A DNA stretch of 35,379 nt from Bacteroidales bacterium (GTDB taxonomy: Bacteria; Bacteroidota; Bacteroidia; Bacteroidales; B18-G4): assembly GCA_021107535.1 (NCBI GenBank), contig JAIOSQ010000159.1, positions 1 through 35,379 of the forward strand, given 5' to 3'. The notes beneath the pieces are model-generated. The model ran no database searches. It was not told where the DNA came from and was given only the letters and a program-made list of their open reading frames with translations. The translations under genes and the position numbers were made by a program. Below, piece after piece: positions 1,895-28,440 of the stretch; the first letter of the stretch is position 1; every line of letters starts with the position of its first letter.

Positions 1895-1905
1895 AGCATT
1901 TATAT

Positions 1906-2820
1906 TTATCGGTTTTCATCAGACATGATCCGAATATATCCGTTGTATCTCATTTTGCTTATCTTTCCATTTTTTACGGCTTCTTTTACCGCACATCCGG
2001 GTTCGTGAAGGTGGGTACAATTTGTATACCTGCAGGAATGCATCAGGGCCCGCATTTCAGGGTAACGTTCAGCCAGTGTACTTTTTTCAAGGTCGTACAG
2101 GCCGAATTCCTTGATCCCGGGCGTATCAATAATAAAGCCACCGAAAGATAAGTTGAACATTCTTGCAAAAGTTGTGGTGTGCACCCCTTTGAGATGTGCT
2201 TTGGATATTGCCTGGATTTTAAGGTTCAGGCCGGGTTCTATACAATTTATCAGGGCAGATTTCCCAACACCTGAGTGCCCGGCAATAAGTGAAACCTTAT
2301 CTTTCAAAATCTCTTTTACCATCTCTGTTCGATCTCCTGTCAATGCTGACACGCAGAAACAGGGATACCCGGCAGCCGTGTATATTTCCACAAGTCCGGC
2401 GAGTTCATTCATCTTTTCCTTTTTATATATATCTGTTTTATTGAAGATGATCACAGCAGGAATATGATAGGCCTCGGCAGTGATAAGAAAGCGATCGATA
2501 AAGCCGGTGGAGGTACGTGGCTCTGCCAGTGTTACAATAATGATGGCCTGATCGAGGTTTGCAGCAAGAATTTGCGATACTTTGGATAATTTTGTTGCTT
2601 TACGGATGATATAATTTTTCCTTGGATGAATATTTGTGATCATACCCGTATTTTCCTCCCCAAGAACCCGAAAATCTACATGATCACCCACGGCAATGGG
2701 ATTTGTGGTTTTTATTCCACTGACTTTGAATTTCCCCCTGAGCTTACAATCGGTAAGCGTTCCGTCAGGGCTTAAAACATTGTACCAGCTTCCTGTAGAT
2801 TTGATTACAATTCCTTCCAA
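1906..2820 (-). CDS. rsgA: Ribosome small subunit-dependent GTPase RsgA
   Basis: A 304-residue circularly permuted GTPase, normal length for the family. The N-terminal OB fold starts with IKSTGSWYNVL (6-16). The G motifs come in permuted order: NKTD (127-130, G4), SAL (158-160, G5), GHSGVGKS (181-188, G1), TTT (215-217, G2) and DTPG (232-235, G3). A zinc-binding knuckle follows with C263, C268, H270 and C276. RsgA acts in late 30S maturation, releasing other factors on GTP hydrolysis. The start is TTG: an in-frame TAA lies six codons upstream, no ATG is available, and this start gives the standard N-terminus. It is 11 nt from the upstream cupin and 11 nt from the downstream CBS gene, consistent with one operon. 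Confidence 0.95.
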   Translation of the reverse strand: MEGIVIKSTGSWYNVLSPDGTLTDCKLRGKFKVSGIKTTNPIAVGDHVDFRVLGEENTGMITNIHPRKNYIIRKATKLSKVSQILAANLDQAIIIVTLAEPRTSTGFIDRFLITAEAYHIPAVIIFNKTDIYKKEKMNELAGLVEIYTAAGYPCFCVSALTGDRTEMVKEILKDKVSLIAGHSGVGKSALINCIEPGLNLKIQAISKAHLKGVHTTTFARMFNLSFGGFIIDTPGIKEFGLYDLEKSTLAERYPEMRALMHSCRYTNCTHLHEPGCAVKEAVKNGKISKMRYNGYIRIMSDENR

Positions 2821-2831
2821 TAGCCTGTCTG

Positions 2832-3101
2832 TTACTTAAATCTGTAATGTTTGCGTATGCTTTTCTTGATATCCCAGATACAGTTCAATCCGTCCCGGAA
2901 AGTCACAAAGTCCCCGGGCTTGATATGGACAGTTCCATCCGGAGTCTCTACATCAACCTCCCCCTCAAGGATATAGCATTCTTCATCCCCATCGTATGTC
3001 CAGTCGAAACGTGAGATTTCCTTTTCCCATACCGGCCAGCTTTTGATCCGGCGTTTTTCGATTTCTTCCGGCCCAAGATTTTCAATTATCACCTTTGCCA
3101 T
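2832..3101 (-). CDS. Small cupin protein (DUF861/Cupin_3 type)
   Basis: An 89-residue protein of a single cupin barrel, with EECYILEGEVDVETPDG and the second motif region HIKPGDFVTF. Homologues are small plant-germin-like cupins of the DUF861 (Cupin_3) family; no reaction can be assigned. The frame stays open back to 3188, but I place the start at ATG 3101 (MAKVIIENLG). A promoter of Bacteroidetes type lies at 3129-3161, inside the longer frame, and the extra residues are not cupin-like. First gene of the rsgA operon. Confidence 0.8.
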   Translation of the reverse strand: MAKVIIENLGPEEIEKRRIKSWPVWEKEISRFDWTYDGDEECYILEGEVDVETPDGTVHIKPGDFVTFRDGLNCIWDIKKSIRKHYRFK

Positions 3102-3128
3102 AATACAAATATTATTATTTAATTTATA

Positions 3129-3161
3129 CAAAGGTACATTAATGAAACTCACTGCGGCAAA
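3129..3161 (-). promoter_or_regulatory. Promoter of the cupin-rsgA-CBS operon
   Basis: On the minus strand a TTTG box (3158-3161) is followed after 21 nt by TACCTTTG (3129-3136), matching the Bacteroidetes consensus TTTG / TAnnTTTG with usual spacing. The expected start of transcription is about 20 nt before the ATG at 3101. Confidence 0.7.
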
Positions 3162-3191
3162 CAGCGGAGTATCTTTATGTGATTTCACACA

Positions 3192-3215
3192 TTTTTTGCC
3201 TCAAGAGGCGGGGAA
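3192..3215. repeat. Short palindromic repeat, copy 1 (T6 then GCCTCAAGAGGC)
   Basis: A T6 run followed by the inverted repeat GCCTC-AA-GAGGC and GGGGAA. The same 24-nt pattern recurs at 33057-33080 with 21 of 24 positions identical. Function unknown. Confidence 0.4.
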
Positions 3216-3257
3216 TATTAAGCTGTCCCTTGTGTTGGTGTGGGCGGTAGGCGGTGG

Positions 3258-3336
3258 GCGGTACGGGGGTGAATAATTTACAGTATACAATTTACAGTTT
3301 ACAATTTACAAGGTACAGCACTCTGCCTGCCGTTAA
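3258..3336 (+). repeat. 79-bp direct repeat, left copy, next to hipA
   Basis: This copy matches 5166-5244 at 77 of 79 positions, in the same orientation. Its centre is an internal 14-bp tandem (AATTTACAGTATAC, AATTTACAGTTTAC, AATTTACAAGG). G-rich degenerate words (gcggtag/gcggtgg) precede it, and one cgttaatcagttaatcgttaat block follows at 3353-3375. The two copies enclose hipBA. Confidence 0.85.
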
Positions 3337-3449
3337 CCATAAATCGTTAATCAGTTAATCGTTAATGATTATAGGTCAAAGACAGAAAAGTGAAACCTTG
3401 ACGGGTAATGTTGTGTTGGTATGGTAACTGGCTGAATTATTCGACGGAA

Positions 3450-4667
3450 TCACCCGATCACCCTGGCGATCAAATCACGCGACACTTTACTAACTCCGGC
3501 ATCTTTTGCATAATTCTGCCAGTTGATAATTACTTCACGAACTTCATCCAGGATATGATCGGGATTCTTTATGCCAAACTGTTCGCCAAGAGATAGTAAT
3601 TGGGTAGCACCCGGGTTTTTGCTTTCGCCATCAACCATGGTGCTGTGATGGCCATGGGAAGAATAAGAAAATGTGAGATCAAAGGCTGGGGCAAAAGTCC
3701 ACCGGCCTTTAGCATCCATCAGGAATGCAAAGTTTTTGCTGTGATCGTCGCGGTTGTGGGCAAACACATTAAAAGCTGCCAGTCTTAAGATCTTATCATA
3801 GGCCGCAACATGTCTCTCCAACGTGAAAGCAGCATCCATCAGGTGGCCATAATCCATACTGCTCAGGCTATAATTATCATGCATCAGCCCTGAAGCCGAG
3901 TGCATATGCAAGCGTTCTGCACCTTTTCGGTCGAAGCGTTTTGTGCCAAAATATGCTCTCCCTGACTTTCCGGTGAACAGCCTTGACTCACTCATATGAA
4001 TGCCGGCACACACGGCCATCAAATAATAAGCATACTCAATATTGGCAATGTCAGGCCGATCGACCGATGCGGGGAATTTGACAATCCAGTGCTCATACCC
4101 TTCCGGTAAAGTTTCTTCGTCTCTAATGAAATGATCAGTTTCGGGATTGTATCCAACAAGTATCTTGGGCCTGGCTCCCCCGGAAGAACCTCCCAGGCGA
4201 AAGAGATCATCAAGAGCAACAGCACCTTTTCCCTCAATGGCCTGCTTAACCTGGCCAGCTATCTCATCAAGACCAGATATGCCGGGGGCATCTTTCCCGT
4301 GCCAGATTTCCGGACGGTAAATCAGTGCACCCATCCCGGTCCGGCCAACATAAGACAGACGGTCGAGCGGGTTGATCTGTTCAGGCAGGATGCCTTTGGC
4401 CGCCAGGATCCTGTCGAGCAACAGGCGTCCCCAGCCATCAGGGAGTGAGTCGAAGAACACTCCATGCAGGCCTTCAAAGAAATCAACCTCCGCCTGCATT
4501 ATCTTTTCATTGAGTGGTAATTTAAAAGGTGATATCTGCAGTCCAAAACGTATAAATTCCGCGTTATAACGAAAGTAGATCCTGGCACTATTGCGCACCA
4601 GTTCTCCTACTTCCATTTCCTCTCCTCCAAAATGTATTGAAACAAATAATTTGTCTACATCAGGCAT
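3450..4667 (-). CDS. hipA: HipA-family serine/threonine kinase toxin
   Basis: A 405-residue HipA-type kinase with all key motifs. The N-terminal domain (LSYVGRTGMGALIY, 104-117) precedes the kinase core: Gly-rich GGSSGGARPK (159-168), the ATP-anchoring lysine in VKFP (196-199), RFDR (244-247), catalytic NRDDHSKN (305-312) and metal-binding APAFDL (326-331). E. coli HipA phosphorylates glutamyl-tRNA synthetase, halts growth and promotes persistence; the target here is not known. No frameshift or motif loss is seen, so the toxin looks intact. It starts 5 nt after the antitoxin stop, so the pair is one transcript. The hipBA block lies between two near-identical 79-bp repeats, suggesting a module gained or moved as a unit. 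Confidence 0.93.
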   Translation of the reverse strand: MPDVDKLFVSIHFGGEEMEVGELVRNSARIYFRYNAEFIRFGLQISPFKLPLNEKIMQAEVDFFEGLHGVFFDSLPDGWGRLLLDRILAAKGILPEQINPLDRLSYVGRTGMGALIYRPEIWHGKDAPGISGLDEIAGQVKQAIEGKGAVALDDLFRLGGSSGGARPKILVGYNPETDHFIRDEETLPEGYEHWIVKFPASVDRPDIANIEYAYYLMAVCAGIHMSESRLFTGKSGRAYFGTKRFDRKGAERLHMHSASGLMHDNYSLSSMDYGHLMDAAFTLERHVAAYDKILRLAAFNVFAHNRDDHSKNFAFLMDAKGRWTFAPAFDLTFSYSSHGHHSTMVDGESKNPGATQLLSLGEQFGIKNPDHILDEVREVIINWQNYAKDAGVSKVSRDLIARVIG

Positions 4668-4672
4668 AGCAA

Positions 4673-4957
4673 TTACGATTTGTTCGTGAATAGTTTTTCA
4701 ATATCCCGGATATCTTCACCGGGCTGTAGTATCCCATCGAATTCATCCAGGCGGCCCAGGATATGAAGAAGTTTTAAAAATGATTCCAGGGATATCTTTC
4801 CGCTTGCTTCAAATCGTTTCAAGCTGCCCAGAGATACGCCTGAGCGTTCTGCCAGATTGGACTGGGACAGGCTTGCAAGCTTTCGGAGCATTCGAATTTT
4901 TTGGGCAGTACTCCTAAGGACTTCCGGTGGAAGCTTTTTAAGACTAAATTTACTCAT
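4673..4957 (-). CDS. hipB: HipB-like XRE-family antitoxin
   Basis: A 94-residue protein with a helix-turn-helix of the XRE/Cro type at about residues 17-65: TAQKIRMLRKLASLSQSNLA then SGVSLGSLKRFEASGKISLE. It should bind the operator and neutralise HipA. An in-frame ATG at 4978 would add seven residues, but that codon overlaps the -7 promoter element (4976-4983), so transcription should begin downstream of it. I therefore use ATG 4957 (MSKFSLKKL). Gene order antitoxin-toxin, with 5 nt between, is usual for hipBA. The protein is expected to repress its own operon through the TAGCTAATATTTTATC repeats. Confidence 0.88.
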   Translation of the reverse strand: MSKFSLKKLPPEVLRSTAQKIRMLRKLASLSQSNLAERSGVSLGSLKRFEASGKISLESFLKLLHILGRLDEFDGILQPGEDIRDIEKLFTNKS

Positions 4958-4959
4958 AA

Positions 4960-4975
4960 TAGCTAATATTTTATC
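4960..4975. promoter_or_regulatory. Putative HipB operator O1
   Basis: Sixteen bases TAGCTAATATTTTATC, identical to 5001-5016. It covers the likely transcription start of hipBA, so binding there would block initiation. Confidence 0.55.
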
Positions 4976-4983
4976 CAAAAATA
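4976..4983 (-). promoter_or_regulatory. hipBA promoter, -7 element TATTTTTG
   Basis: TATTTTTG on the minus strand fits TAnnTTTG. The expected -33 region (about 5004-5008) falls inside the second operator copy. The first operator copy directly adjoins the -7 element on its downstream side. Confidence 0.65.
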
Positions 4984-5000
4984 CAAATATTAATTCGTAT

Positions 5001-5016
5001 TAGCTAATATTTTATC
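5001..5016. promoter_or_regulatory. Putative HipB operator O2
   Basis: Exact second copy of the 16-bp O1 sequence, 41 bp away (about four helical turns), lying over the -33 region. A weaker GCTAATTTT word follows at 5026-5034. Confidence 0.55.
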
Positions 5017-5165
5017 TATTTATTTGCTAATTTTCCTTCAAATCTTAATATATGAGATAGATAATTTTCGCTTTTCCCCTTAATCTCCCGCCAGTTGGAT
5101 GAGGTGGTGTTGGTGCTGTAAAGGGGGCATGAGGTGTGCGGTGTGCGGTGCACGGTGCGCGGTAC

Positions 5166-5244
5166 GCGGTACGGGGGTGAAAAATTTACAGTATACAATT
5201 TACAGTTTACAATTTATAAGGTACAGCACTCTGCCTGCCGTTAA
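5166..5244 (+). repeat. 79-bp direct repeat, right copy, between hipBA and dprA
   Basis: This is the partner of 3258-3336 and differs from it at two positions. It is preceded by a degenerate G-rich tandem (gcggtgt/gcggtac words, 5132-5172) and followed directly by the cagttaat tandem that ends at the dprA stop codon. Confidence 0.85.
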
Positions 5245-5299
5245 TCGTTAATCAGTTAATCAGTTAATCAGTTAATCAGTTAATCAGTTAATCGTTAAT
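5245..5299 (+). repeat. Tandem repeat of an 8-bp unit (cagttaat)
   Basis: About six units of CAGTTAAT lie between flanking cgttaatc words, ending at the dprA stop codon. The corresponding place after the left 79-bp copy holds only one such unit, so the copy number differs between the two sites. Confidence 0.75.
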
Positions 5300-6495
5300 C
5301 ATTTCCGAATTTCATAGAGTTTCCCCGGCAAAGCGGTGATGACCCCTTCAAATTCAAGTTTTAGCAGGACTGAAGCAGCTTTCGAAGCACCCAATCCGCA
5401 GATGATCACGATGTCGTCAACAGATGCCCGCGTTTTTTCAGCAATGATGCTTAGTATTTTCTGTTCATCAGGGGAATGTCTTTTCAGCAAGTCAGCCTGA
5501 TTTTTCTTTTTGACAGCGGGGCCCTCCCAGCCCATGGAGTACCTGATATCGTCGGCCGACCTGGCAAGGGCAGCAATATTTCTTCGGATGAGCAGATGAC
5601 ATCCATCCGAAAATTTGTCATGCACTTTCCCCGGTACAGCAAATACGTCCCTGTTATAGGAATTTGCAATATCCGCTGTGATCACTGCACCGCCTTTTTT
5701 AGCTGACTCTACGACCAGCACGGCATCGGAGAGGCCTGCGATGATCCTGTTTCTCTTGGGAAAGTTTTCCCTGTCGGGTTTTGAATTGCTCATGAACTCA
5801 GTAATCAGGCCGCCCTGTTTCAGCATACGCACAGCCATGCTTCTGTTTTCCATTGGATAGATCCTGTCCAGGCCATGGCCCAGAACCCCGACAGTATTCA
5901 ATCCATAAGACAATGCCTTTCGATGAGCACAGCTGTCAATGCCATAGGCCATGCCACTTATGATCAGCACATCATCCCCTGCAAAGCCCTTTATGATCTC
6001 TTCGCAAACACGCCGGCCATAGGAGCTTGCCTGCCTGGTTCCCACAATGGCCAGCATCTTCTTTTGCATAAAATTTTCAACTCCTTTATAATATAATAGC
6101 AAGGGACTGTCAACACAATGTTTCAATCTTATTGGATAGTCATCGTCGTAATAATATAAAGGTGTGATCCTGCTGTTCCTGACAAAGATCACTTCCTGCT
6201 CAGCCCGTTGCAGGATTTCCTTGAAATTTACATCCCGGCCCAGGAGTTTTATCATACCCGGAATCTTTAGTAATTCGCTTTTAGGTTTTTTGAATACTGC
6301 TTCGGGGTCGCCGCACCATGAGATCAGCTTTTTAGCATTCATGTGGCCTATGCCGGGGATCAGTGTTATAGCGATCCGGTAAAGCAGCATTTCCTCTTTT
6401 TCAGGCATCATATGGATACAGTTTATTTCTATCTTTGTATAAGGTTCCCTTTGTCCCTGGATTATTAACAGTTCGTCTATACTATTAATATTCAT
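5299..6495 (-). CDS. dprA: DNA-processing protein DprA (Smf)
   Basis: A 398-residue protein with the complete DprA layout: an N-terminal helix-hairpin-helix/SAM-like part (about 36-110), a Rossmann domain, and a C-terminal winged helix (about 330-398). Rossmann signatures are VGTRQAS (151-157), SGMAYGID (180-187), NFPKRNRIIAGLS (244-256) and KGGAVITA (267-274). DprA loads RecA on incoming single-stranded DNA during natural transformation. The ATG at 6495 is preceded by GGAGGTGA, a rare strong Shine-Dalgarno site for this phylum, and by a TATTTTTG promoter; this supports the long N-terminus over the ATG codons at residues 29-30. The gene diverges from the glycosyltransferase with 44 bp between starts. 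The repeat tract abuts its stop codon. Confidence 0.94.
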   Translation of the reverse strand: MNINSIDELLIIQGQREPYTKIEINCIHMMPEKEEMLLYRIAITLIPGIGHMNAKKLISWCGDPEAVFKKPKSELLKIPGMIKLLGRDVNFKEILQRAEQEVIFVRNSRITPLYYYDDDYPIRLKHCVDSPLLLYYKGVENFMQKKMLAIVGTRQASSYGRRVCEEIIKGFAGDDVLIISGMAYGIDSCAHRKALSYGLNTVGVLGHGLDRIYPMENRSMAVRMLKQGGLITEFMSNSKPDRENFPKRNRIIAGLSDAVLVVESAKKGGAVITADIANSYNRDVFAVPGKVHDKFSDGCHLLIRRNIAALARSADDIRYSMGWEGPAVKKKNQADLLKRHSPDEQKILSIIAEKTRASVDDIVIICGLGASKAASVLLKLEFEGVITALPGKLYEIRK

Positions 6496-6507
6496 TTTCG
6501 CAAAATG

Positions 6508-6515
6508 TCACCTCC
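6508..6515 (-). promoter_or_regulatory. Strong Shine-Dalgarno site of dprA (GGAGGTGA)
   Basis: GGAGGTGA lies 12 nt before the ATG at 6495. It supports that start, although the spacing is somewhat long. Confidence 0.55.
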
Positions 6516-6519
6516 AATG

Positions 6520-6527
6520 CAAAAATA
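6520..6527 (-). promoter_or_regulatory. dprA promoter, -7 element TATTTTTG
   Basis: TATTTTTG on the minus strand, 24 nt upstream of the dprA ATG. No good TTTG box at -33 was seen; that area lies in the start of the divergent gene. Confidence 0.5.
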
Positions 6528-6539
6528 TTTTCTGATATT

Positions 6540-7628
6540 TTGAAAAAAAACAAAAACATACTTGTTTGTCCGCTCGACTGGGGAATTGGCCATGCATCCC
6601 GTTGTGTGCCTATAATCAGGACCCTAAGAGACAAAGGGGCTCATGTTTTCCTGGGTAGCTGGGGCAGGACTGCTTCCTTCTTGAAATTTGAATTTCCTGA
6701 GCTGGAACATGTCCCCTTTCCCAGATATAACATTTCCTACCCAAGAAATGGCAGCATGGCTATCCATATGTTATGGAAGAGTCCATATTTGCTGCGGGCC
6801 ATCAGGAAAGAACATCGTGTGCTGGATTCACTGATCAGCACTTATGACATTGATGCGGTGATCTCAGACAACAGGTTTGGGCTATGGTCGGAGCGAATTC
6901 CATGTGTATATGTGACGCACCAGGTGATGATCAAAGCACCAAAGGCTTTTTCCTTTATTGAGCCTGCATTATATCATTTTCACAGAAAAATCATACAGCA
7001 CTATTCTGAATGCTGGATTCCCGATCTTGCCGGGCCTAATAATCTCTCAGGAGACCTGGCACATAAGAGGGGAACGGCGGTACCTGCTTATTTCATCGGT
7101 GCACAATCACGCTTCGATCACTCCCGGCTTAACGGAATAGAGAAAAGATACGAGATCATGGCCATCATAAGCGGACCTGAGCCACAGCGAAGCATATTTG
7201 AAAAAGTCCTGCTCAGTCAACTCAGGCAGGCCAATGTGAAAGCCCTGGTAGTTTTAGGAAAGCCTGAAATACATCCACAGCAACGGACAGACGGGAATAT
7301 CGAGATTTTCGCTCATATGGATACTCTTGATATGCAAAAAGCACTCTTAAGTTCCGGGCTGATCATCAGCCGCCCCGGGTATTCCAGCATTATGGATCTT
7401 GCAGTGCTGCGCAAGAAAGCAGTCTTTGTCCCGACACCGGGGCAAACAGAGCAGGAATATCTTGCAGATTATCACATGAAAAAGAAACATTGTTATTCAG
7501 TTTCTCAGAAAGCATTTGATATGAACAGCATTTTGGAAACTGCAGAAAAATATACAGGGCTGAGGACAGATGTGAACAATGATGAGTTGGATGGGCGTGT
7601 TGAAAGATTGCTTGACAACAAGTTTTGA
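6540..7628 (+). CDS. MurG-like glycosyltransferase family protein
   Basis: A 362-residue protein of GT-B type. The N-terminal half begins ILVCPLDWGIGHASRCVPII (7-26), a glycine-rich loop and GHASR motif seen in GT28-like enzymes. The C-terminal half has GYSSIMDLAVLRKKAVFVP and PGQTEQEYLADYH, the nucleotide-sugar binding region related to MurG. The donor and acceptor cannot be told, but a UDP-sugar transferase acting on envelope glycans or lipids is likely. The start is TTG at 6540; no in-frame ATG exists before residue 72, which would remove the GHASR motif. It diverges from dprA. Its stop codon lies within a 7-bp tandem repeat (agttttg). Confidence 0.8.
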   Translation: MKKNKNILVCPLDWGIGHASRCVPIIRTLRDKGAHVFLGSWGRTASFLKFEFPELEHVPFPRYNISYPRNGSMAIHMLWKSPYLLRAIRKEHRVLDSLISTYDIDAVISDNRFGLWSERIPCVYVTHQVMIKAPKAFSFIEPALYHFHRKIIQHYSECWIPDLAGPNNLSGDLAHKRGTAVPAYFIGAQSRFDHSRLNGIEKRYEIMAIISGPEPQRSIFEKVLLSQLRQANVKALVVLGKPEIHPQQRTDGNIEIFAHMDTLDMQKALLSSGLIISRPGYSSIMDLAVLRKKAVFVPTPGQTEQEYLADYHMKKKHCYSVSQKAFDMNSILETAEKYTGLRTDVNNDELDGRVERLLDNKF

Positions 7629-7725
7629 GTTTTGAGTTTTGAGTTTTAAGTGTTGGCCAGATCCAGCAACCAGCAACCAGTGACCAGAAACCAGTATCCA
7701 GTATCCAGTATCCAGAATCCAGAAT
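7621..7725 (+). repeat. Two adjoining simple tandem repeats
   Basis: Four units of a 7-bp word (agttttg, 7621-7648, overlapping the stop codon of the upstream gene) are followed by degenerate 7-bp units of the type agcaacc and agtatcc (about 7662-7725). They fill the gap before lgt. Function unknown. Confidence 0.8.
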
Positions 7726-7740
7726 AGCAAACAATCTACG

Positions 7741-7748
7741 TATATTTG
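7741..7748 (+). promoter_or_regulatory. lgt promoter, -7 element TATATTTG
   Basis: TATATTTG matches TAnnTTTG and lies 41 nt before the lgt ATG, just downstream of the tandem repeats. No clear -33 box was seen. Confidence 0.55.
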
Positions 7749-7789
7749 CAAAAATAATTTACGTTGGCTTATAAATAAAAACCACTTTT

Positions 7790-8620
7790 ATGATCCTAAA
7801 CTTTATTATCTGGAATCCCACTCCCGAGCTTTTTGAGCTTAGCATACCCGGAATCGGTACGATCGCACCCCGTTGGTACGGACTTCTTTTCGCCATGGGA
7901 TTTGTGGTGGGTTACATCATCATGCAAAAGATCTTCAAAAAAGAAGGCATTCCAATAAAGGTTCTTGATCAGCTGGCCACTTACATGATCCTGGCCACTA
8001 TCATTGGAGCCAGGCTTGGGCATGTGCTCTTTTATGAACCACTGGAATATTTCAGAAATCCCGTGGAGATACTGATGATCTGGAAAGGAGGATTGGCCAG
8101 CCACGGCGCTGGTATTGCCATTATTATAGCCTTGATATTGTTTTCAAGGAGAAATAAAAAGCCATTCAGCTGGATTTTCGACAGGATTGCTATTGTGGTA
8201 GCCCTGGCGGGGGCATTTATCCGTACAGGGAACCTTATGAATTCAGAAATTTACGGAGTGGAGACTTCACTTCCCTGGGGATTTAAATTCATTGCCAGTG
8301 ACCCGAGCCTGATCCCCAAGCATCCGACACAGATCTATGAGGCCCTTGCATACTTCATGATATTTATATTTCTCTGGCTCGTTTATTTGAAAAGAAACGG
8401 AAAACCCAGGCCGGGATTTCTTTTCGCCATGTTCATGATCCTGGTATTCACTTTCCGCTTTTTTATTGAATTTTTGAAAGAGCCGCAGGTAGGTTTTGAG
8501 ATAGACATGACTTTGAATATGGGCCAATTGCTAAGCATCCCCTTTGTACTGGTGGGAGTGATTATCCTGATCATAATCTATAGAAAGAAGGATCGTCCTC
8601 AAAAGGAGGTCAAGGTATAA
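7790..8620 (+). CDS. lgt: Prolipoprotein diacylglyceryl transferase Lgt
   Basis: A 276-residue inner-membrane enzyme with about seven membrane segments. It moves diacylglycerol from phosphatidylglycerol to the lipobox cysteine of prolipoproteins, the first step of lipoprotein maturation. Signatures in order are RWYGLLFAMG (28-37), GARLGHVLFYEP (73-84), GGLASHGAGIA (100-110, with the catalytic-region histidine), FIRTGNLMNSEIYG, HPTQIYEA and FRFFIEFLKEPQ. Length is normal. The ATG at 7790 follows a TATATTTG promoter by 41 nt. It converges on the DUF2723 gene with 30 nt between the stops. Confidence 0.96.
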   Translation: MILNFIIWNPTPELFELSIPGIGTIAPRWYGLLFAMGFVVGYIIMQKIFKKEGIPIKVLDQLATYMILATIIGARLGHVLFYEPLEYFRNPVEILMIWKGGLASHGAGIAIIIALILFSRRNKKPFSWIFDRIAIVVALAGAFIRTGNLMNSEIYGVETSLPWGFKFIASDPSLIPKHPTQIYEALAYFMIFIFLWLVYLKRNGKPRPGFLFAMFMILVFTFRFFIEFLKEPQVGFEIDMTLNMGQLLSIPFVLVGVIILIIIYRKKDRPQKEVKV

Positions 8621-8637
8621 AACCCGCATATCAGCAC

Positions 8638-8654
8638 ATAAGAAAGCTTCTTAT
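8638..8654. terminator. Possible bidirectional hairpin between lgt and the DUF2723 gene
   Basis: Inverted repeat ATAAGAA-AGC-TTCTTAT between two convergent genes, overlapping the downstream stop codon. It lacks a GC-rich stem and a long T tract, so it is weak. Confidence 0.35.
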
Positions 8655-11600
8655 CTCAGCACTTCCATATGTCCCATAAGGATAGCTTCTATTTCTTCTG
8701 ACAGTTCCGGCTGGCCATTTTCTCTGGTCACTTCCGCCATTCTCTGAAGTACCGCAACGGCCTGTTGCATTTCAGCAGAATAATAAGTATCAGCAAATGC
8801 AGGATCGAGTGATAAGAAATAGGTGAGTTCCTGGTCACAAACATCCACCATTTTCCTTACCTCTTCAGTGGCCGTTTCCATCCTGCCTGCATTATAATAG
8901 ATCTCAATAAAGGGCATCATGATAATATCATAATGAATTTTATCTGCAGGAAAATAATGGATACAAGTATCAAGGATAGCGGCTGCTTTTTCTGGTTTCC
9001 TGTCATTAAGCAAGGCCTGTGCAATCCTGAGAAAATTTTGTTTCTGGACCCTTGAATTTCTGTAGCTTTCACGGTCGACAGTAACCGAAGGGTCGTTCAG
9101 GTTTCCAAAACGGAAATCATTCATGATAATATCATAGGATTTATCGGCATGGACGCCACCCAGCCTGGGAATATAATCTTTCGCCTTCACCGGCATGAAC
9201 TTATACACATTGCCTTCAAGATGGCAATATTCATCTATATCGATCAGTTTTTCCAGTGAGCTGGGGTTTGCAAAATACAGCGGCCTTTCCCAATTATTGG
9301 TGGCCAGAAAATCGAGCAGCATCAGGTCGTTCTTATACAAGGCATTCTGCCTGATCTCCCATTCGATATAAGGAACGATAAGATGTGCCATCTCCCTGGG
9401 AACGATTCCATTATCAACACATTTGGCCGAGTCAACCGTGAGCCTGAGTTTTTTTGCAGGTATATAATTGATCTTGTCACCGGTGGTGAGCGGTAGTTTG
9501 GTCCGATCATCATCACTGGCGATGAAGTTGATCAGGTCTTTCACTTCAACATGACCTTTAATGCCACGATCGACATACATAATATACTGGTTCACACCTT
9601 TCTCATACTGTCCGGGTGTAAGTGTCAGCTGCAAGGGCTCAGAATCGTACACCTTTCTTCCCAGCTGATGTACATACCAATATCCGGAGGAAAGCATATA
9701 ATTCACCACCCTTATATCCGTCCGGAAATCTTCCACTTCCTGCACATACCAGAGGGGGAAAGTATCGTTATCGCCATTGGTGATCAGTATCGCATTGGGG
9801 TCGCATGATACCAGGTAGTTCATCGCAAAATCACGTGTTGCATATTTCCCTGAGCGATCATGATCATCCCAGCCCTGCTGAGCCATAATGCCAGGCACAA
9901 ACAGCAGGCCGATAAGGGCAATCCCTCCGGCCGCGAATTTATTCTCCCCAAGATACTTTTTCAGCCAATGGTAGAGCCCAAGCACACCAAGGCCAATCCA
10001 GATTGAAAATGCATAAAATGATCCTGTATATGCATAATCACGCTCCCTTGGCTGATAAGGATATTGATTCAGGTAGAGCACAATGGCAATCCCTGTCATC
10101 AGGAAAAGCAAGGCCACTACCAGGGTATCCCGCTTGCTTGAATTCAGATGGAAAAACAAACCTACAAGGCCAAGAAGAAGAGGAAGGAAATAAAACTTAT
10201 TACGGGCCGGATTGCGAAGACTCTCCGGAAGATTAAGCTGGTCGCCAAGCCTGGCATTATCGATAAACCCAAGCCCGCTGATCCAGTTTCCGTTTTTGGG
10301 GCCGGGTTGTGCTTCCACATCATTTTGCCTCCCGGCAAAATTCCACATAAAGTACCTGAAATACATATGGCCAAGCTGATAATCGAAAAAGAAACCGAGG
10401 TTATCCCCGAATGATGGCTTTTTGATGATCTCACCATCCACCTGTATAGATCTGGCGTTTCCGGCATATTGGTTATACATGCGCTTATGTTCTGGTTTAC
10501 GGCTGCTCCACATCCGGGGGAATATGGTTGTAAAGCGCTTATCATAAACCGGAATTGTACCAACTCTTTTGTCTGTGACCTTATATCTTCCGGCTTCCCG
10601 GTCCTTCACATATAGCGGATTTCCGTCATCATAGTCTACAATTGGGGCATTATAATATTGCCCATGCAATATCGGCCAGTCACCATACTGTTCCCTGTTG
10701 AGGTATGATAAGAGGGCAATGGCATCCTCCGGACTATTTTCATCGATGGGCGTATTTTCATTAGAACGAATGATCAACAGCATAAAAGATGAATAGCCAA
10801 TGAGGATGAAGACAAAACTCAGGATGGCAGTATTCAGGACTACCTTCCCGTGTTTGCGGGTAAGTATCAGCCCAAAAATGATCAGGGCGATCAGGATCGC
10901 AAAGTATATCAGTGTTCCTGAATTGAATGGCATCCCCATAGAATTCACAAAGAATAATTCAAATGCTGTTGAAAGGCTTACTATGCCCGGGATAATGATA
11001 AACATGATGATGCTGAGCAGGATCATGGATATGGCCAGAGTAAGGATGGCTCCTTTTACAGTTGATTTATATTTTTTGAAGTAATAGACAAATGCGATGG
11101 CAGGTATTGCCAACAGGTTCAGCATATGAACGCCTATTGAAAGGCCGATAAGGAAAGCGATCAGGATGATCCATCGCAGGGCATATTTTTCACCAGCTAC
11201 CCTTTCCCATCTTAAGATCGCCCAGAAAGTGATGGCCGTAAAGAAAGAAGACATGGCATAAACCTCACCTTCCACTGCTGAGAACCAGAATGAATCGGAA
11301 AACGTAAAGGCAAGTGCTCCAACCACACCACTTCCAAGGACTGCAACCATATTTCCTGTTGTCATTTCTCCGTTGCTTGTCACCAGTTTTCTGGCCAGCA
11401 TGGTAATGGTCCAGAAAAGGAACAATATGGTAAAACTGCTGCTTAATGCTGACATGGCATTGATCATCATAGCCACTTTTGAGACATCACCAAAGGCAAA
11501 GAGAGTGAAGAACCTTCCAAGCAATTGGAACAGCGGAGCTCCAGGGGGGTGGCCAACCTGCAATTTATAGGCTGTTGCAATATATTCCCCGCAGTCCCAC

Positions 11601-11698
11601 CAGCTGGCGGTAGGTTCAAGCGTAAGAAAATAAACAATGGTAGCAATAAGAAAAACAAGCCAGCCAAGCAGCTTGTTTAATTTGGTATAGTTTTCCAT
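8651..11698 (-). CDS. DUF2723 membrane protein, probable GT-C type O-mannosyltransferase (TMEM260-like)
   Basis: A 1015-residue protein. The first 620 or so residues hold about 12 membrane segments. A signature near the N-terminus, ASWWDCGEYIATAYKLQVGH (31-50) then PPGAPLFQ, carries the acidic pair D36/E38 placed as in GT-C glycosyltransferases. A soluble part follows with ITNGDNDTFPLWYVQE, and the last 130 residues are helical and TPR-like. The family includes human TMEM260, reported as a protein O-mannosyltransferase and classed in GT117; the bacterial substrate is inferred only. Bacteroidota commonly carry one or more genes of this length. The start is the ATG at 11698. A possible promoter (TAATTTTG on the minus strand) is at 11837-11844. 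It may work with lgt and the T9SS cargo in building surface proteins, but gene adjacency is the only support. Confidence 0.85.
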   Translation of the reverse strand: MENYTKLNKLLGWLVFLIATIVYFLTLEPTASWWDCGEYIATAYKLQVGHPPGAPLFQLLGRFFTLFAFGDVSKVAMMINAMSALSSSFTILFLFWTITMLARKLVTSNGEMTTGNMVAVLGSGVVGALAFTFSDSFWFSAVEGEVYAMSSFFTAITFWAILRWERVAGEKYALRWIILIAFLIGLSIGVHMLNLLAIPAIAFVYYFKKYKSTVKGAILTLAISMILLSIIMFIIIPGIVSLSTAFELFFVNSMGMPFNSGTLIYFAILIALIIFGLILTRKHGKVVLNTAILSFVFILIGYSSFMLLIIRSNENTPIDENSPEDAIALLSYLNREQYGDWPILHGQYYNAPIVDYDDGNPLYVKDREAGRYKVTDKRVGTIPVYDKRFTTIFPRMWSSRKPEHKRMYNQYAGNARSIQVDGEIIKKPSFGDNLGFFFDYQLGHMYFRYFMWNFAGRQNDVEAQPGPKNGNWISGLGFIDNARLGDQLNLPESLRNPARNKFYFLPLLLGLVGLFFHLNSSKRDTLVVALLFLMTGIAIVLYLNQYPYQPRERDYAYTGSFYAFSIWIGLGVLGLYHWLKKYLGENKFAAGGIALIGLLFVPGIMAQQGWDDHDRSGKYATRDFAMNYLVSCDPNAILITNGDNDTFPLWYVQEVEDFRTDIRVVNYMLSSGYWYVHQLGRKVYDSEPLQLTLTPGQYEKGVNQYIMYVDRGIKGHVEVKDLINFIASDDDRTKLPLTTGDKINYIPAKKLRLTVDSAKCVDNGIVPREMAHLIVPYIEWEIRQNALYKNDLMLLDFLATNNWERPLYFANPSSLEKLIDIDEYCHLEGNVYKFMPVKAKDYIPRLGGVHADKSYDIIMNDFRFGNLNDPSVTVDRESYRNSRVQKQNFLRIAQALLNDRKPEKAAAILDTCIHYFPADKIHYDIIMMPFIEIYYNAGRMETATEEVRKMVDVCDQELTYFLSLDPAFADTYYSAEMQQAVAVLQRMAEVTRENGQPELSEEIEAILMGHMEVLR

Positions 11699-11836
11699 GG
11701 AAAGAAATATTTATGCTGTTGATTGCGTCAGCGAAAATATGAATTTTGATTTGATTGCGCCTGAGGCCGGACTGAAATTATTAAATTTTAACAATCAGGC
11801 AGATGTAAAATGCAAAAACCGTCGGTAATTTTACCA

Positions 11837-11844
11837 CAAAATTA
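11837..11844 (-). promoter_or_regulatory. Possible promoter of the DUF2723 gene (TAATTTTG)
   Basis: TAATTTTG on the minus strand fits TAnnTTTG but lies 138 nt before the ATG and has no clear -33 box. The near match TATTTTCG at 11730-11737 is closer to the gene. Confidence 0.35.
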
Positions 11845-11875
11845 GTGTAAATATTTTTTTAATAATAATTTTTTG

Positions 11876-11883
11876 TACTTTTG
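11876..11883 (+). promoter_or_regulatory. Promoter of tRNA-Gln, -7 element TACTTTTG
   Basis: TACTTTTG matches TAnnTTTG. It sits about 110 nt before the tRNA, in a very AT-rich tract, and is the only good promoter before the tRNA-rimP-nusA-infB block. Confidence 0.6.
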
Positions 11884-11994
11884 CAGTCCGTTTTTCTGCC
11901 CTGGGTTTGCCTTAGGCGGAAAATGGAGAAAAGCCCGCCTTCGCTAACCGCGTGTTGCTATAGCTTCAGCGGTGGCACAAGTTTTGGCGGACAA
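11884..11994 (+). other. Structured, GC-rich leader before tRNA-Gln
   Basis: The leader contains possible stems GGCGG/CCGCC (11915-11941) and ACCGC/GCGGT (11947-11972). It ends with CGGACAA directly before the tRNA, which repeats the tRNA 3' end and could pair with the tRNA 5' strand TGTCCG. A block at 11968-11990 resembles 1091-1115. No coding potential was seen. Confidence 0.4.
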
Positions 11995-12067
11995 TGTCCG
12001 ATGGTGTAACTGGCAACACGTCTGATTTTGGTTCAGAAGAGTCCAGGTTCGAGCCCTGGTCGGACAA
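11995..12067 (+). tRNA. tRNA-Gln (anticodon UUG)
   Basis: A 73-nt cloverleaf. The acceptor stem is TGTCCGA/TCGGACA, the D stem GTGT/ACAC, the anticodon stem TCTGA/TCAGA with loop TTTTGGT (anticodon TTG), and the T stem CCAGG/CCTGG with loop TTCGAGC. The discriminator is A and CCA is not encoded. All stems pair fully. It is followed at 20 nt by a strong hairpin terminator and then by rimP. Confidence 0.97.
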
Positions 12068-12087
12068 CCCTAGGCGGAAGGATTTAT

Positions 12088-12111
12088 GAGGGGACATCTG
12101 TCCCCTCTTTT
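12088..12111 (+). terminator. Intrinsic terminator between tRNA-Gln and rimP
   Basis: GAGGGGACA-TC-TGTCCCCTC followed by TTTT. The stem is a perfect 9-bp inverted repeat. It ends only 10 nt before the rimP ATG, so rimP-nusA-infB may depend on read-through, which would make it an attenuator. Confidence 0.8.
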
Positions 12112-12121
12112 ATTGCTAACA

Positions 12122-12583
12122 ATGATTAAAGAAAAATATATAAGAAAACTTGCGGAGCATGAACTGGAAGGATCTGACAACTTTGTTGTGGAGGTTTTGG
12201 TGAAATCCGGCAACCGCATCAGGATCTTCATCGATAGTGATCATGAGATCAGTGTTGATGTTTGTATTGCGCTGAGCCGGGTGATTGAAGGAAGTCTCGA
12301 CCGCGAAGAAGAGGATTTTGAGCTAATGGTTTCTTCAGCAGGGCTGGACCAACCTTTCAGCATGCTGAGGCAATACAAGAAGTATCTTAACAGGCAGGTG
12401 AATGTGGAGTTGGTTGACGGAAGCAAACTAAGCGGCATCCTTACACATGCAGATGAAGACAATATTACAATTAAGACACTCATCACTAAAAGCAAACATA
12501 AAACTGTTGAGGAAGGCCCTGAACAGCATCTTCAATACAACGAAATAAAAGAAACAAAACCGGCTATTCTTTTTAAGAAATAA
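12122..12583 (+). CDS. rimP: Ribosome maturation factor RimP
   Basis: A 153-residue RimP: an N-terminal alpha/beta domain (VEVLVKSGNRIRIFIDSD, then SVDVCIALSRVIEGSLDREE) with the typical VSSAGLDQPF turn, and a C-terminal SH3-like barrel (NVELVDGSKLSGILTHADED). It aids 30S subunit assembly. The frame is open back to 12086, but that start lies in the terminator hairpin and adds non-homologous residues; ATG 12122 (MIKEKYIRKLAEHEL) is the family start. It begins the conserved rimP-nusA-infB cluster, 22 nt ahead of nusA. Confidence 0.95.
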   Translation: MIKEKYIRKLAEHELEGSDNFVVEVLVKSGNRIRIFIDSDHEISVDVCIALSRVIEGSLDREEEDFELMVSSAGLDQPFSMLRQYKKYLNRQVNVELVDGSKLSGILTHADEDNITIKTLITKSKHKTVEEGPEQHLQYNEIKETKPAILFKK

Positions 12584-12605
12584 GCCGAACGAAAATTAAA
12601 GAATA

Positions 12606-13841
12606 ATGGATAATATAAATTTGGTTGAAACCTTTTCGGAATTTAAGGAATTCAAGAACATCGACCGGGAGATGCTCATGGTGATCATCGAGGATATCTT
12701 TCGTCATATGCTTGAAAAAAAATACGGCACCGACGATAACTTTGACATTATTGTGAACATCGATAAGGGAGACCTTGAGATATGGAGAAACAGGGAGATT
12801 GTTGAAGACAGTGAGCTTGAAGACGAAAATCTTCAGATCACCCTGTCGCAAGCCATCAAAATTGAACCTGATTTTGAGGTAGGTGAAGAAGTTTCAGAAG
12901 AACTCAAACTTAAAGATTTCGGAAGGCGGGAGATCCTCACGATCAGGCAGAACCTGATCGCTAAAATCCAGGAATACGAGAAAGATGCTGTATATCAGAA
13001 GTATAAAGAAAAGATCGGGGATATCATCACAGGCGAGATCTACCAGATATGGAAAAAAGAAATCCTGGTTCTCGACGATGAATACATTGAGTTGACCCTG
13101 CCTAAATCAGAGCAGATCCCCTCCGATTTCTACCGTAAGGGAGATACCATCAGGGCGGTTGTTGCCATGGTAGAAATGAAAAATGGTACACCTGAGATCA
13201 TCCTTTCAAGGACTTCTCCTGTCTTTTTGGAAAGACTTTTTGAATCAGAAGTACCGGAAGTTTACGATGGACTGATCACCATAAGAAATATCGTAAGGGT
13301 TCCCGGCGAGAGAGCAAAAATTGCAGTTGAGTCCTATGATGACCGTATCGATCCGGTCGGGGCTTGTGTGGGAATGAAAGGTTCCAGGATCCATGGCATC
13401 GTGAGAGAGTTGAAAAATGAAAATATCGATGTTATCAACTTCACCACCAACGCCACTCTTTTCATAACAAGGGCACTGAGCCCGGCAAAAATCAGTTCTA
13501 TCACCATCCATGAGGAATCAAAAAAAGCTGATGTTTATATGAAACCTGACCAGGTTTCACTTGCCATTGGAAAAGGCGGGTTTAATATCAGGCTGGCTGG
13601 CAAATTAACGGGTTACGAGATCGATGTATATCGCGATGCTGATATTGACACTGAGGATGTTGACCTGTCAGAATTCTCCGATGAGATCGATAAGTGGATC
13701 ATTGAAGAACTGAAAGGTATCGGTTGCGACACAGCCAAGAGCGTTCTAGAACTGGAACCGCTTGAACTGGTCAAAAGAACAGACCTTGAAGAAGAAACCA
13801 TTAAGGAGGTCATTAGGATCCTCAAAGCTGAGTTTGAATAA
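12606..13841 (+). CDS. nusA: Transcription termination/antitermination factor NusA
   Basis: A 411-residue NusA: N-terminal RNA-polymerase-binding domain (about 1-125), S1 domain (about 130-205, GDIITGEIYQIWKKEILVLD), KH1 (about 225-275, with the conserved DPVGACVGMKGSRIHGIVRE) and KH2 (about 300-350, AIGKGGFNIRLAGKLTG). One helix-hairpin-helix-like segment ends the protein (IIEELKGIGCDTAKSVLELE); the long acidic repeats of E. coli NusA are absent, as is usual outside Proteobacteria. It binds elongating polymerase and modulates pausing and termination. Placed between rimP and infB. It could feed back on the terminator at 12088-12111, which is inference. Confidence 0.96.
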   Translation: MDNINLVETFSEFKEFKNIDREMLMVIIEDIFRHMLEKKYGTDDNFDIIVNIDKGDLEIWRNREIVEDSELEDENLQITLSQAIKIEPDFEVGEEVSEELKLKDFGRREILTIRQNLIAKIQEYEKDAVYQKYKEKIGDIITGEIYQIWKKEILVLDDEYIELTLPKSEQIPSDFYRKGDTIRAVVAMVEMKNGTPEIILSRTSPVFLERLFESEVPEVYDGLITIRNIVRVPGERAKIAVESYDDRIDPVGACVGMKGSRIHGIVRELKNENIDVINFTTNATLFITRALSPAKISSITIHEESKKADVYMKPDQVSLAIGKGGFNIRLAGKLTGYEIDVYRDADIDTEDVDLSEFSDEIDKWIIEELKGIGCDTAKSVLELEPLELVKRTDLEEETIKEVIRILKAEFE

Positions 13842-13906
13842 AAGTATTATTTTTATCGCAATATTATCCTGAACAATATCAGGATCAAATTATTTGAGTC
13901 TATAGT

Positions 13907-16777
13907 ATGACGGAAGTTAACAAAGCCATCAGATTGAGTAAAGCTGCCAAGGAGTTCAATGTCGGCCTTCGCAATATTGTTGAATATCTTCTTGAAAAAG
14001 GTATTGAGATTGAGGCGAAGCCTACAGCTAAGATCAGTGGTGAAATGTATGAAATGCTTGTGCAGGAATTTCAAGAGGAAAAGGCTGTTAAAGAAGAGTC
14101 GAAGAAAAAAGAAATAGATACAAGTAAGCATCAATCCATCAGAATTGGTGATGAAGACACATTGACAAAAACAGAGGAAAAAGCAACAGAGGTGGAGATC
14201 ATTATCAAAGAAACTTCTATCCCTGAAATAAAGTCAAAAGAACCTGTAATTGAAGAGAAAACGGAAGAAGTTCCTAAACCTGAAGCAAAAGTCACCAAAA
14301 AGCCGAAAAAGGAGGTAAGCGCAAAAGAGACAGTCGAAGAAAAAGATAAGAAAGCTGATTCTACAATCAAAATCCTGGATAAGATCGACATCGACTCGAT
14401 AAACCAGAAAACACGTCCTGCCAAAAAAACAAAAGAAGAAAAAGCGAAAGAGGCAGAAGAGAAGGAGAAAAAAGAAGCGAAAGGCAAGAAAACTGCAAAA
14501 AAAGAAAAACCGGAAGATAAAAAGGAAAAACCCGCTAAAGAAGAAGAAATAGTTGCAGAAGCAGTGAAGAAAGATGCCGATACTGACACTGAGGTTCCAG
14601 CAGATAGCAAGAAAGAAAGGAGAGGGAAGGAAAAATTTATCAAAACAGAAGTTGATAAACTTGAAGGCCCGAAGATCCTTGATAAAATTGATCTTAAGGA
14701 ATTTGAAAAGAAACCTGTAGCATCTTCCAAAGATGAAAAAGTATCGCAGAAAAAGAAAAGAAAAAGAATAATTCAGCCGAGGCACGTATCAGACACGGGT
14801 GGCAAAAAACATGACGACAGGAGCAGAGGCAGGGGCCGTAAAAAGAAAGAAGCTCCAAAACCGGAACCTACCGAAGAAGAAATTCAGAAACAGATCAAGG
14901 AAACCCTTGCAAGGCTTGCTCCCACTGGAAAATCCAAAAGCGCAAAACACCGGAGGATGAAACGTGCAGCAGTCAGCCAGCAAATTGAAGAAGATCAAAA
15001 GAAAATTGACGCCGAAAAGCAAACACTGAAGCTCACGGAATTTGTTACGGTAAATGAACTTGCCACCATGATGGATGTTTCCGCAACAGAGGTTATTTCT
15101 GCTTGTATGACGTTGGGATTATTTGTTTCAATAAATCAGAGGCTTGATGCAGAAACACTAAACCTTGTTGCTGAAGAATTCGGATTTGAAGTGGAATTTG
15201 TAAGCGTTGAAGTACAGGAAGCCATTGACGGAATCGAAGTTGTCGAGGAAGATGAAAGCAAGCTGTTGCCAAGGGCACCGATTGTTACCGTGATGGGGCA
15301 TGTTGACCATGGTAAAACAAAACTCCTTGATTATATCAGGAAATCGAATGTGGTTGCCGGTGAGGCAGGTGGGATAACCCAGCATATCGGAGCTTATGAA
15401 GTAGTTCTCGAAAACGGAAAGAATATCACATTCCTGGATACTCCGGGACATGAAGCTTTTACTGCCATGCGTGCCAGGGGAGCAAAGGTTACTGATATTG
15501 TCATTATCATCATAGCGGCAGACGACGATGTGATGCCCCAAACCAAAGAAGCCATCAATCACGCACAGGCTGCGGGTGTACCGATCATCTTTGCCATCAA
15601 TAAAATTGACAGGCCCAATGCCAATGCGGAGAAGATCAAGCAACAACTGTCAGAAATGAACATTCTGGTAGAAGACTGGGGTGGGAAGTATCAGAGTCAG
15701 GATATTTCTGCTACAGAAGGAACCAATATTAACGAACTCCTCGAGAAGGTATTATTGGAAGCTGAGATGCTTGATCTTAAAGCCAACCCTGAAAAAAATG
15801 CGATTGGCACCGTGATCGAGTCCTCACTCGACAAAGGAAGAGGATATATAACCAATGTTTTGGTGCAAGCTGGCACTATACATGTGGGAGACATGGTACT
15901 TGCCGGTTCACATTTCGGCAAAATAAAGGCCATGTATAATGAAAGAAACCAATTGATAAAAGAAGCCGGGCCTTCTACGCCTGTATTGTTACTTGGGCTT
16001 AACGGAGCGCCCCAGGCTGGTGACGGATTCAACATTATCAGGAACGAAAGGGAAGCTAAAAGTATTGCCAATAAACGAGAGCAGCTGCAACGTGAACAGG
16101 GCCTGCGTACGACAAAGCATGTTACCCTCGATGAGATCGGCCGCCGAATTGCCATCGGTGATTTTAAAGAACTTAACATTATTGTTAGAGGTGATGTTGA
16201 TGGTTCGGTTGAAGCCCTGTCGGATTCACTGCTCAAATTATCGACTGAAGAAGTACAGCTTAATATCATACTGAAAGGCGTTGGTGCAGTGACTGAAACA
16301 GATGTTATGCTCGCATCAGCTTCAAATGCAATCATTATCGGATTCCAGGTCCGTCCTCAGCCCGGAGCCAGGAAACTGGCCGAACTGGAACAGATCGACA
16401 TTCGTCTGTACAGTATTATCTACCAGGCCATCGAAGAGATCAAATCTGCTATTGAAGGTATGCTCTCACCTGATATTGAAGAAAAGATCACCTGTAACGT
16501 GGAAGTCAGGGAAGTATTCAAGATCACCAAGGTGGGTACCGTTGCCGGGTGTATGGTGCTTGAGGGTAAAATTACCCGTAAGACCACTGTACGCCTGATA
16601 CGCGACGGCATTGTTGTATATACCGGCGTTCTGGGATCTCTTAAACGATTTAAGGATGATGTTAAAGAGGTGGCCACCGGTTACGAATGTGGAATGAACA
16701 TCGAGAACTTTAATGATATCAAAGTCGGTGATATTATTGAGGGATATGAAAAATTTGAAATTAAGAGAACGCTGTAA
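13907..16777 (+). CDS. infB: Translation initiation factor IF-2
   Basis: A 956-residue IF-2. An IF2_N motif (about 6-51) is followed by a long lysine/glutamate-rich low-complexity linker (about 60-370), a second IF2_N motif (about 380-430), and the G domain. The G domain has GHVDHGKT (about 464-471), [18 protein letters not shown] and NKID. Domain II and the C-terminal fMet-tRNA binding domains follow ([20 protein letters not shown] near the end). It brings initiator tRNA to the 30S subunit. The linker gives long shadow frames on the opposite strand that are not genes. There are 65 nt between nusA and this ATG. The stop codon forms part of a small hairpin. Confidence 0.97.
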
Positions 16778-25818: not shown

Positions 25819-26107
25819 ATATTAATAATTATAGCAACAGTATTAATAATGTGTTAATTCCTGATTGCTGCCCCTGCAATGAAAATTCATTCTTCAGTAA
25901 AAATCCACCCTCTGAGAAGGTGGCTTTGAATTGTACCCATTGGGCGCTTGATGGAGGAAGATTGGAATGATGGAAAAATGGAAAGAAAAACATATTAATT
26001 GTAGTGCAATATTCCAATATTCCAATAACATCCCTCATGTATAACAAAAATGGACATAAGCACCCTCTAAGAAGGTGGATTTCTAATTCAAATTAAAGAA
26101 TTTATGT

Positions 26108-27908: not shown

Positions 27909-27914
27909 GTAGAT

Positions 27915-27985
27915 AAAAATCCAAACTTCAAATTTCAAAATTCAAAAAAACTTCAAAAATTAAATTTCAAATTCTAAACATGAGT
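27915..27985 (+). repeat. AT-rich simple repeat downstream of lepA
   Basis: Degenerate words of the type aaacttcaaatttcaaaattcaa. Their reverse complement matches the tttgaagtttgg words upstream of the four-helix-bundle gene, so the gene is bracketed by inverted simple sequence. Confidence 0.7.
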
Positions 27986-27992
27986 TTAGTGA

Positions 27993-28343
27993 TCATTGCT
28001 TTTTCAGATTTTTTTGAATTATTGACGAGAAGATTCTAATGAGTTCTTTTGATTCCTGAATAAGAGCTGATATTTCATCTGGACTAGAAATCATATTCGT
28101 ATTCTCAATTACTTTTAGCCAATATCGGCTTTCCTTTGCTTCTTTTAGGCAAATCCGGATTCGATAAATGAAATCTTTTTTACTCAAACTTTCGATTGCT
28201 TCAATAAAATTTGCACCAACTGAACCCGACGATCGAATTAATTGTACAAAATCATCATGATTTAATCGATTTTGATTCAAAGATTTAACTAACTTTCTAA
28301 TATTGACAGCATAATTAAACGTCCTATCTTTCAAATCAATCAT
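27993..28343 (-). CDS. Four-helix-bundle protein (S23/IVP type)
   Basis: A 116-residue protein of the family first found as the product of 23S rRNA intervening sequences (four helix bundle, PF05635). Diagnostic parts are TFNYAVNIRKLVKSL, QLIRSSGSVGANFIEAIESL (conserved R-S-x-S-x-x-x-N) and KEAKESRYWLKVI. Related to Avd, the helper of diversity-generating retroelements, but no reverse transcriptase is present here. No function is known. It is AT-richer than its neighbours and lies between simple-sequence repeats in inverted orientation, which suggests a mobile history. No good promoter was recognised. Confidence 0.88.
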   Translation of the reverse strand: MIDLKDRTFNYAVNIRKLVKSLNQNRLNHDDFVQLIRSSGSVGANFIEAIESLSKKDFIYRIRICLKEAKESRYWLKVIENTNMISSPDEISALIQESKELIRIFSSIIQKNLKKQ

Positions 28344-28440
28344 TGCATGGTAATATTAAAGGCCTCCCTACTTTATTAATACCAAAAATTAATAAATGTC
28401 ACAAATTATTTCTTGATTTGAAGTTTGAAGTTTGGTTTTT

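Follow-up and report, generated by a model that had tools for sequence, protein, structure and literature searches.

The hipBA toxin-antitoxin pair in the window (the whole 35,379-nucleotide stretch of Bacteroidales DNA that we analysed) lies between two nearly identical direct repeats, R1 and R2. A toxin-antitoxin pair between direct repeats readily passes for a mobile cassette. Here the repeats probably reflect ordinary intergenic repeat turnover around a hipBA pair that is gained and lost, a composite block of 7-mers having been duplicated or converted in this lineage, rather than marking the termini of such a cassette. The orthologous empty site of a sister genome shows repeat duplication and gene gain or loss to be separate events at this locus.

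A direct repeat pair around an intact hipBA

The preliminary description placed the copies at 3258-3336 and 5166-5244, in the same orientation and identical at 77 of 79 positions, and these coordinates proved exact on recheck. Within this 79-nt core the copies, spaced 1.9 kb apart, differ at 3274 and 3309 and have in common exact runs of 34 nt (the longest) and 27 nt. The longest exact direct repeats produced by 200 first-order shuffles of the window measured 13-19 nt; the similarity of R1 and R2 is far beyond chance. The pair extends beyond 79 bp (Table 1), and a shorter alignment of it covers 3240-3345 and 5148-5253 (90% over 106 nt). Beyond R1 lie the cupin gene and rsgA, and beyond R2 lies dprA. 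The interior consists of hipA, hipB and short overlapping frames, with no transposase, as had been reported. The accompanying claim that the repeats enclose only hipBA is nearly right, but they also enclose a 53-bp block (3375-3427) and the sequence 5097-5149, both of which are present at the hipBA-less site of the sister genome G003.

Table 1. Features of the hipBA spacer and its neighbours in the window
Feature	Position	Strand	Evidence
Cupin-domain gene, left neighbour	2832..3188	-	Cupin_3 PF05899, E 7e-22; orthologous stretch in G003 93% identical in DNA
Spacer segment A, conserved, left of R1	3108..3241	.	84% to G003:C104 14294-14427
Left repeat block R1, mosaic of 7-mer arrays	3245..3366	+	91% over 124 nt to R2; TRF periods 7 and 14
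Block K/M', anchor inside the repeats, just left of hipA	3375..3427	+	90.6% to G003:C104 14615-14667
Left member of the 25-nt imperfect duplication	3403-3427		Last 25 nt of K/M'
hipA, 405 aa	3450..4667	-	HipA_C PF07804, E 2e-45; Couple_hipA PF13657, E 7e-15
hipB, ~94 aa from ATG at 4957	4673..4957	-	HTH_3, 31.6 bits (cut-off 23)
Putative HipB operator half, TAGCTAATATTTTATC	4960..4975	.	Direct repeat with 5001-5016
Putative operator, second copy, TAGCTAATATTTTATC	5001..5016	.	Direct repeat with 4960-4975
M'', right member of the 25-nt imperfect duplication	5097..5121	+	18/25 identical to 3403-3427
Right repeat block R2	5153..5276	+	90% over 72 nt to the single G003 spacer region; TRF period 7/14
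(GTTAATCA)n array ending R2 beside dprA	5240..5301	+	TRF, 8 copies, 94% matches
dprA, right neighbour	5299..6495	-	PF02481, E 3e-75; G003 protein 95% identical

The window comes from a draft genome of 341 contigs (G000), and a short-read metagenome assembler could have duplicated or misplaced the block. We regard such an artefact as very improbable: the copies differ at two of the 79 core positions and at more in their flanks, and outwards each continues into orthologous sequence.

The genes themselves are unremarkable, and compared with chromosomal type II HipBA modules the duplicated flanking block is the only peculiarity of the locus. As in those modules, the order is hipB-hipA, with an HTH antitoxin upstream, a full HipA comprising N-subdomain and kinase domain, and paired operator-like sites ahead of the genes. 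All three Pfam domains (PF07804 and PF13657 in hipA, HTH_3 in hipB) score above cut-off. The hipA frame is full-length and free of internal stops, and its NRDDHSKN motif aligns with HipT(Lp). The start of hipB in the open reading frame list is a TTG at 4978, with an alternative ATG at 4957. Judged by these features, the pair looks intact and may well be active. Upstream of hipB, TAGCTAATATTTTATC occurs in two exact copies, which form a putative operator that HipB would bind; look-alike sites precede the hipB genes of G003, G138, G090 and G034.

The orthologous spacer of a sister genome separates hipBA from the repeats

G003 belongs to the same genus and has the order rsgA-cupin-spacer-dprA without hipBA. 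Its spacer runs from segment A (84%), which has partial relatives on two other contigs of the window's own genome (G000:C279 and G000:C245), through about 187 bp of other DNA to K/M (~91%), a match to window positions 5097-5149 (94%) and one repeat region (90% to R2) adjoining dprA. No counterpart of R1 was found at its place in this spacer. K/M has no second match anywhere in G000 and, because it is unique there, can be used as a positional anchor. It lies between R1 and R2 and yet is kept in G003; the G003 site is therefore not the product of recombination between R1 and R2.

This result bears on the idea that the repeats are functional ends of a small excisable cassette, from which homologous recombination deletes hipBA and leaves one copy. 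Loss by recombination had been raised in the preliminary description, and the layout would allow it: the copies are 97% identical over 79 nt, in one orientation and 1.9 kb apart, their 34- and 27-nt exact runs offer homology, and hipBA does vary between the sisters, the G003 spacer being without it. A lone repeat between the cupin gene and dprA had been named as the thing to look for, and G003 indeed has a repeat region on the dprA side only. However, the vacant site in this one genome is not a single copy with nothing from between, as K/M is retained; a mobile cassette bounded by the repeats is thereby ruled out for the observed empty site. Moreover, the G003 region is single and R1 is specific to the window lineage, and no single-copy product of an R1 x R2 deletion was found in the genomes compared. 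An excisable cassette is thus unlikely.

The hipBA indel instead maps between 3427 and 5097, with a 25-nt imperfect duplication on either side. The 25-nt element is single in G003, where it has five mismatches to 3403-3427 and two to 5097-5121. From these alignments, the junction between presence and absence of hipBA lies inside the repeats, at the 25-bp duplication. The duplication might be what an old hipBA insertion left as its target-site duplication, since degenerated, with G003 having lost hipBA by recombination across it; this would be compatible with ordinary repeat turnover, as it bears on the hipBA junction only. One copy in G003 and one on either side of hipBA in the window is the expected pattern, but the window copies are only 18/25 identical, and a GTGTTGGTG-like motif also ends segment A, so that local motif repetition explains the arrangement equally well. 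It also counts against this idea that two further genomes of the genus, G001 and G002, are without the whole spacer, their rsgA-dprA gap being about 60-80 bp with no cupin gene, hipBA or repeat. We consider a target-site duplication possible, if somewhat doubtful.

R1 and R2 have changes in common that are not seen in G003, for example CAGTATACAATTTACAGTTTAC and CTCTGCCTGCC. These common derived bases, together with the mere two differences in 79 positions, indicate that the right copy gave rise to the left one, or converted it, after the split from G003. R1 thus seems to be recent and lineage-specific, and not the end of an inserted cassette common to several genomes. Gain of hipBA in the window lineage and its loss in G003 are indistinguishable, because a single sister genome has a usable orthologous spacer.

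The repeat block is a composite of heptamer arrays

In the block, a short unique core is surrounded by tandem 7-mers, (GCGGTAC)n or (GGCGGTA)n, (AATTTAC)n and (GTTAATC)n. TRF resolves the order as (GGCGGTA)n, then (AATTTAC)n with a 14-nt higher period, the unique sequence AGGTACAGCACTCTGCCTGCC, and finally (GTTAATC)n or (GTTAATCA)n. Periods of 7 and 14 were found at 3243-3263, 3275-3311, 3331-3366, 5133-5173 and 5183-5216, and the final array, 5240-5301, has period 8.

Among the arrays in the intergenic DNA of G000, those of period 7 are the most frequent. In stretches sampled from that genome (statistics of the sample, not of the whole genome), the smallest period was 7 in 25 of 42 classified non-coding arrays (135 kb sampled), and non-coding DNA matched itself at lag 7 with a frequency of 0.333 versus 0.282 at other lags; coding DNA of the sampled stretches gave no lag-7 excess. 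Few genes have arrays on both sides (5 of 175 sampled ORFs with a length of 100 aa or more). No single dominant heptamer was seen by TRF in the window, the units differing from array to array.

A search of G000 with the 79-mer recovered both window copies, a third at 81% on C9 and seven partial matches, all short, and the core AGCACTCTGCCTGCCGTTAA, with up to three mismatches, occurs at five places in G000 (the window's two included) and two in G003. For the (GTTAATC)n tail by itself, more than a dozen further matches were found in G000. The preliminary description named scatter over hundreds of intergenic sites, unconnected with hipBA, as what would refute it. Scatter does hold for pieces of the block, (AATTTAC)n and (GTTAATC)n, which recur in more than a dozen further places, but not for the whole block, which is confined to the two window sites and the diverged C9 copy. 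Parts of the block are scattered in G000; the complete, near-identical block is found only at the hipBA locus. Dispersed repeats also occur elsewhere in this genome: G000:C146 (L125) carries dense direct repeats of 60-240 bp over 1900-15030, including copies of a TGGTGGGCCCAC-type block.

Over-representation of heptameric repeats in bacteria is already known (PMC4692102, PMC4679880). Examples are GGGAATC in Xanthomonas and GGGGATT in Nostoc (PMC4692102) and TAACTGA in Beggiatoaceae, Cyanobacteria and some Bacteroidetes (PMC4679880). It has been proposed that polymerase slippage favours 7-nt units (PMC4692102, PMC4679880), and heptamer arrays vary in length between close relatives (PMC4692102). 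The arrays described here are similarly tandem, mostly intergenic, length-variable in close relatives and over-represented relative to other unit sizes. Unlike the cited cases, in which one heptamer is central, many unrelated degenerate 7-mers occur in one genome and are strung into composite blocks. Our literature search found no paper on heptad arrays in Bacteroidales, which is no proof of absence.

A proposed slippage-based origin for R1

We infer both the order of events and slippage as the mechanism. R2 would be an old resident of the cupin-dprA spacer, and R1 a recent duplicate of it, or a sequence recently converted to match it, in this lineage only. Most likely, slippage and short-homology recombination would reshape 7-mer-rich spacers such as this one. 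A single event of this kind may have placed a copy of the dprA-side R block near the cupin gene, with GTGTTGGTG, which precedes both copies, as a possible anchor. hipBA would have been gained in the window lineage, or lost in G003, at a different junction of the same spacer. The repeats may be read as by-products of slippage and short-homology recombination because the hipBA boundary lies inside them, at the 25-bp duplication beside the anchor. With both copies in place, slippage or RecA recombination between them could now and then delete hipBA.

Like composite transposons, MITEs and target-site duplications, the locus has direct repeats on either side of a cargo pair. In contrast to composite transposons and MITEs, the interval has no transposase, no conserved termini and no target duplication of fixed length, and the empty-site junction does not fall at the repeats. 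Two observations count against the turnover explanation. The 28% divergence of the M copies fits an older insertion followed by loss in G003, and local direct repeats also surround a small number of other hipA loci, which leaves room for insertion-linked duplication.

Direct repeats at other hipA loci

Overall, a direct repeat pair spans 12 of 74 hipA loci and 7 of 208 control genes. The order-level set, in which pairs at 0.9-3 kb spacing across hipA were counted, contributes 9/37 hipA loci (window included) versus 5/120 controls (p=0.0008), and the independent class-level set 3/37 versus 2/88 (p=0.15). In a matched comparison, where controls had to have 100 bp or more of non-coding DNA on both sides, the counts were 6/41 and 3/60 (p=0.10), or 5/40 and 3/58 without the window (p=0.18). 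A general association of hipBA with repeats was accordingly rejected, the excess being not significant against flank-matched controls.

The repeats at these other loci are real but inconstant, with lengths of 24-165 bp and unrelated sequences: 144 bp (96%) in G451, 165 bp (93%) in G534, 93 bp (92%) in G345, 121 bp (93%) in G028, 47 bp (96%) in G006 and 24 bp (100%) in G112. In G075 an 85-bp, 94% pair at wider spacing surrounds hipBA plus an ATPase gene. Such pairs, and the overall excess at hipA loci, could mean that Bacteroidia hipBA inserts without a transposase, duplicating 24-165 bp of the target spacer, or is carried between local repeat copies. That is improbable, given that neither the class-level set alone nor the flank-matched comparison, with or without the window, reaches significance and that repeat length and sequence are not constant. 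A broader version, in which transposase-free HipBA insertion across Bacteroidia duplicates tens to more than 100 bases of local intergenic repeat DNA, leaves a signature of variable length and prefers 7-mer arrays as landing sites, strikes us as quite unlikely. The pattern is most simply explained by a tendency of hipBA to occupy long spacers rich in repeats. Titles and abstracts in the literature held nothing to the point on direct repeats around hipBA.

Some hipBA loci have individual peculiarities. The G075 repeats (L250 6427-6511 / 9701-9784) enclose a DUF4143-like ATPase gene with hipBA, in a polysaccharide gene cluster with wecB-like and DUF354-like neighbours (gene names by eye). In G090 (L179 558-635 / 2357-2435), hipBA is flanked by two stretches similar to a tmRNA or tRNA 3' end (GGAGCTGCAGGGTTTCGAACCCTG), and on the left there is a degenerate fragment of a second hipB; the site looks like an integration hotspot. 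In G034 (L247 6597-6630 / 8181-8214), a 34-nt palindrome, AAGACCTGTCAGGTTTCAAAAACCTGACAGGTCT, stands on either side of hipBA.

Turnover of hipBA and of array-rich spacers between sister genomes

Absence of hipBA is reciprocal. G003 has a hipA of its own, 63% identical, beside an OstA-like gene on C234; at the orthologous site G000 (C332) has 213 bp of array-rich DNA instead, and each genome thus holds one hipBA where the other has none. Both are drafts, about 91-93% complete, and each empty site is read through on a single contig. Close HipA relatives (57-61% identity) are scattered over Bacteroidia, as expected for a horizontally moving toxin-antitoxin module. hipBA is a gain/loss module whose turnover is separate from the repeat duplication. 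A plasmid or phage origin was considered and rejected: on plasmids and on four phage contigs of faecal origin, tblastn gave distant HipA relatives only, all below 60% identity. A scan of viral contigs found no HipA relative, and a plasmid DNA search matched hipA coding DNA only and never the repeat.

Degenerate 7-mer arrays of many kinds fill the intergenic DNA of this Bacteroidales genus, and the sizeable intergenic differences between G000 and G003 in the window mostly contain them. Whether arrays act as landing or deletion sites for accessory genes is now a testable question. Apart from the hipBA spacer, the window stretches of more than 100 bp that do not align to G003 are 964-1228, 25904-26092, 27907-28558, 30165-30286 and 31946-32204; all except 25904-26092 contain arrays of 7-mer or 14-mer period. 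Around genes for four-helix-bundle / 23S_rRNA_IVP-like proteins (PF05635) in G000 and G003, a 7-mer array lies within 350 bp on at least one side at 12 of 15 loci and on both sides at 4 of 15, compared with 52/175 and 5/175 for other ORFs, controls that were not matched for gene or spacer length. One such gene (28029-28328, minus strand) lies in the stretch 27907-28558, which the syntenic G003 contig lacks, and has inverted 7-mer arrays on its two sides, at 27915-27939 and 28417-28441.
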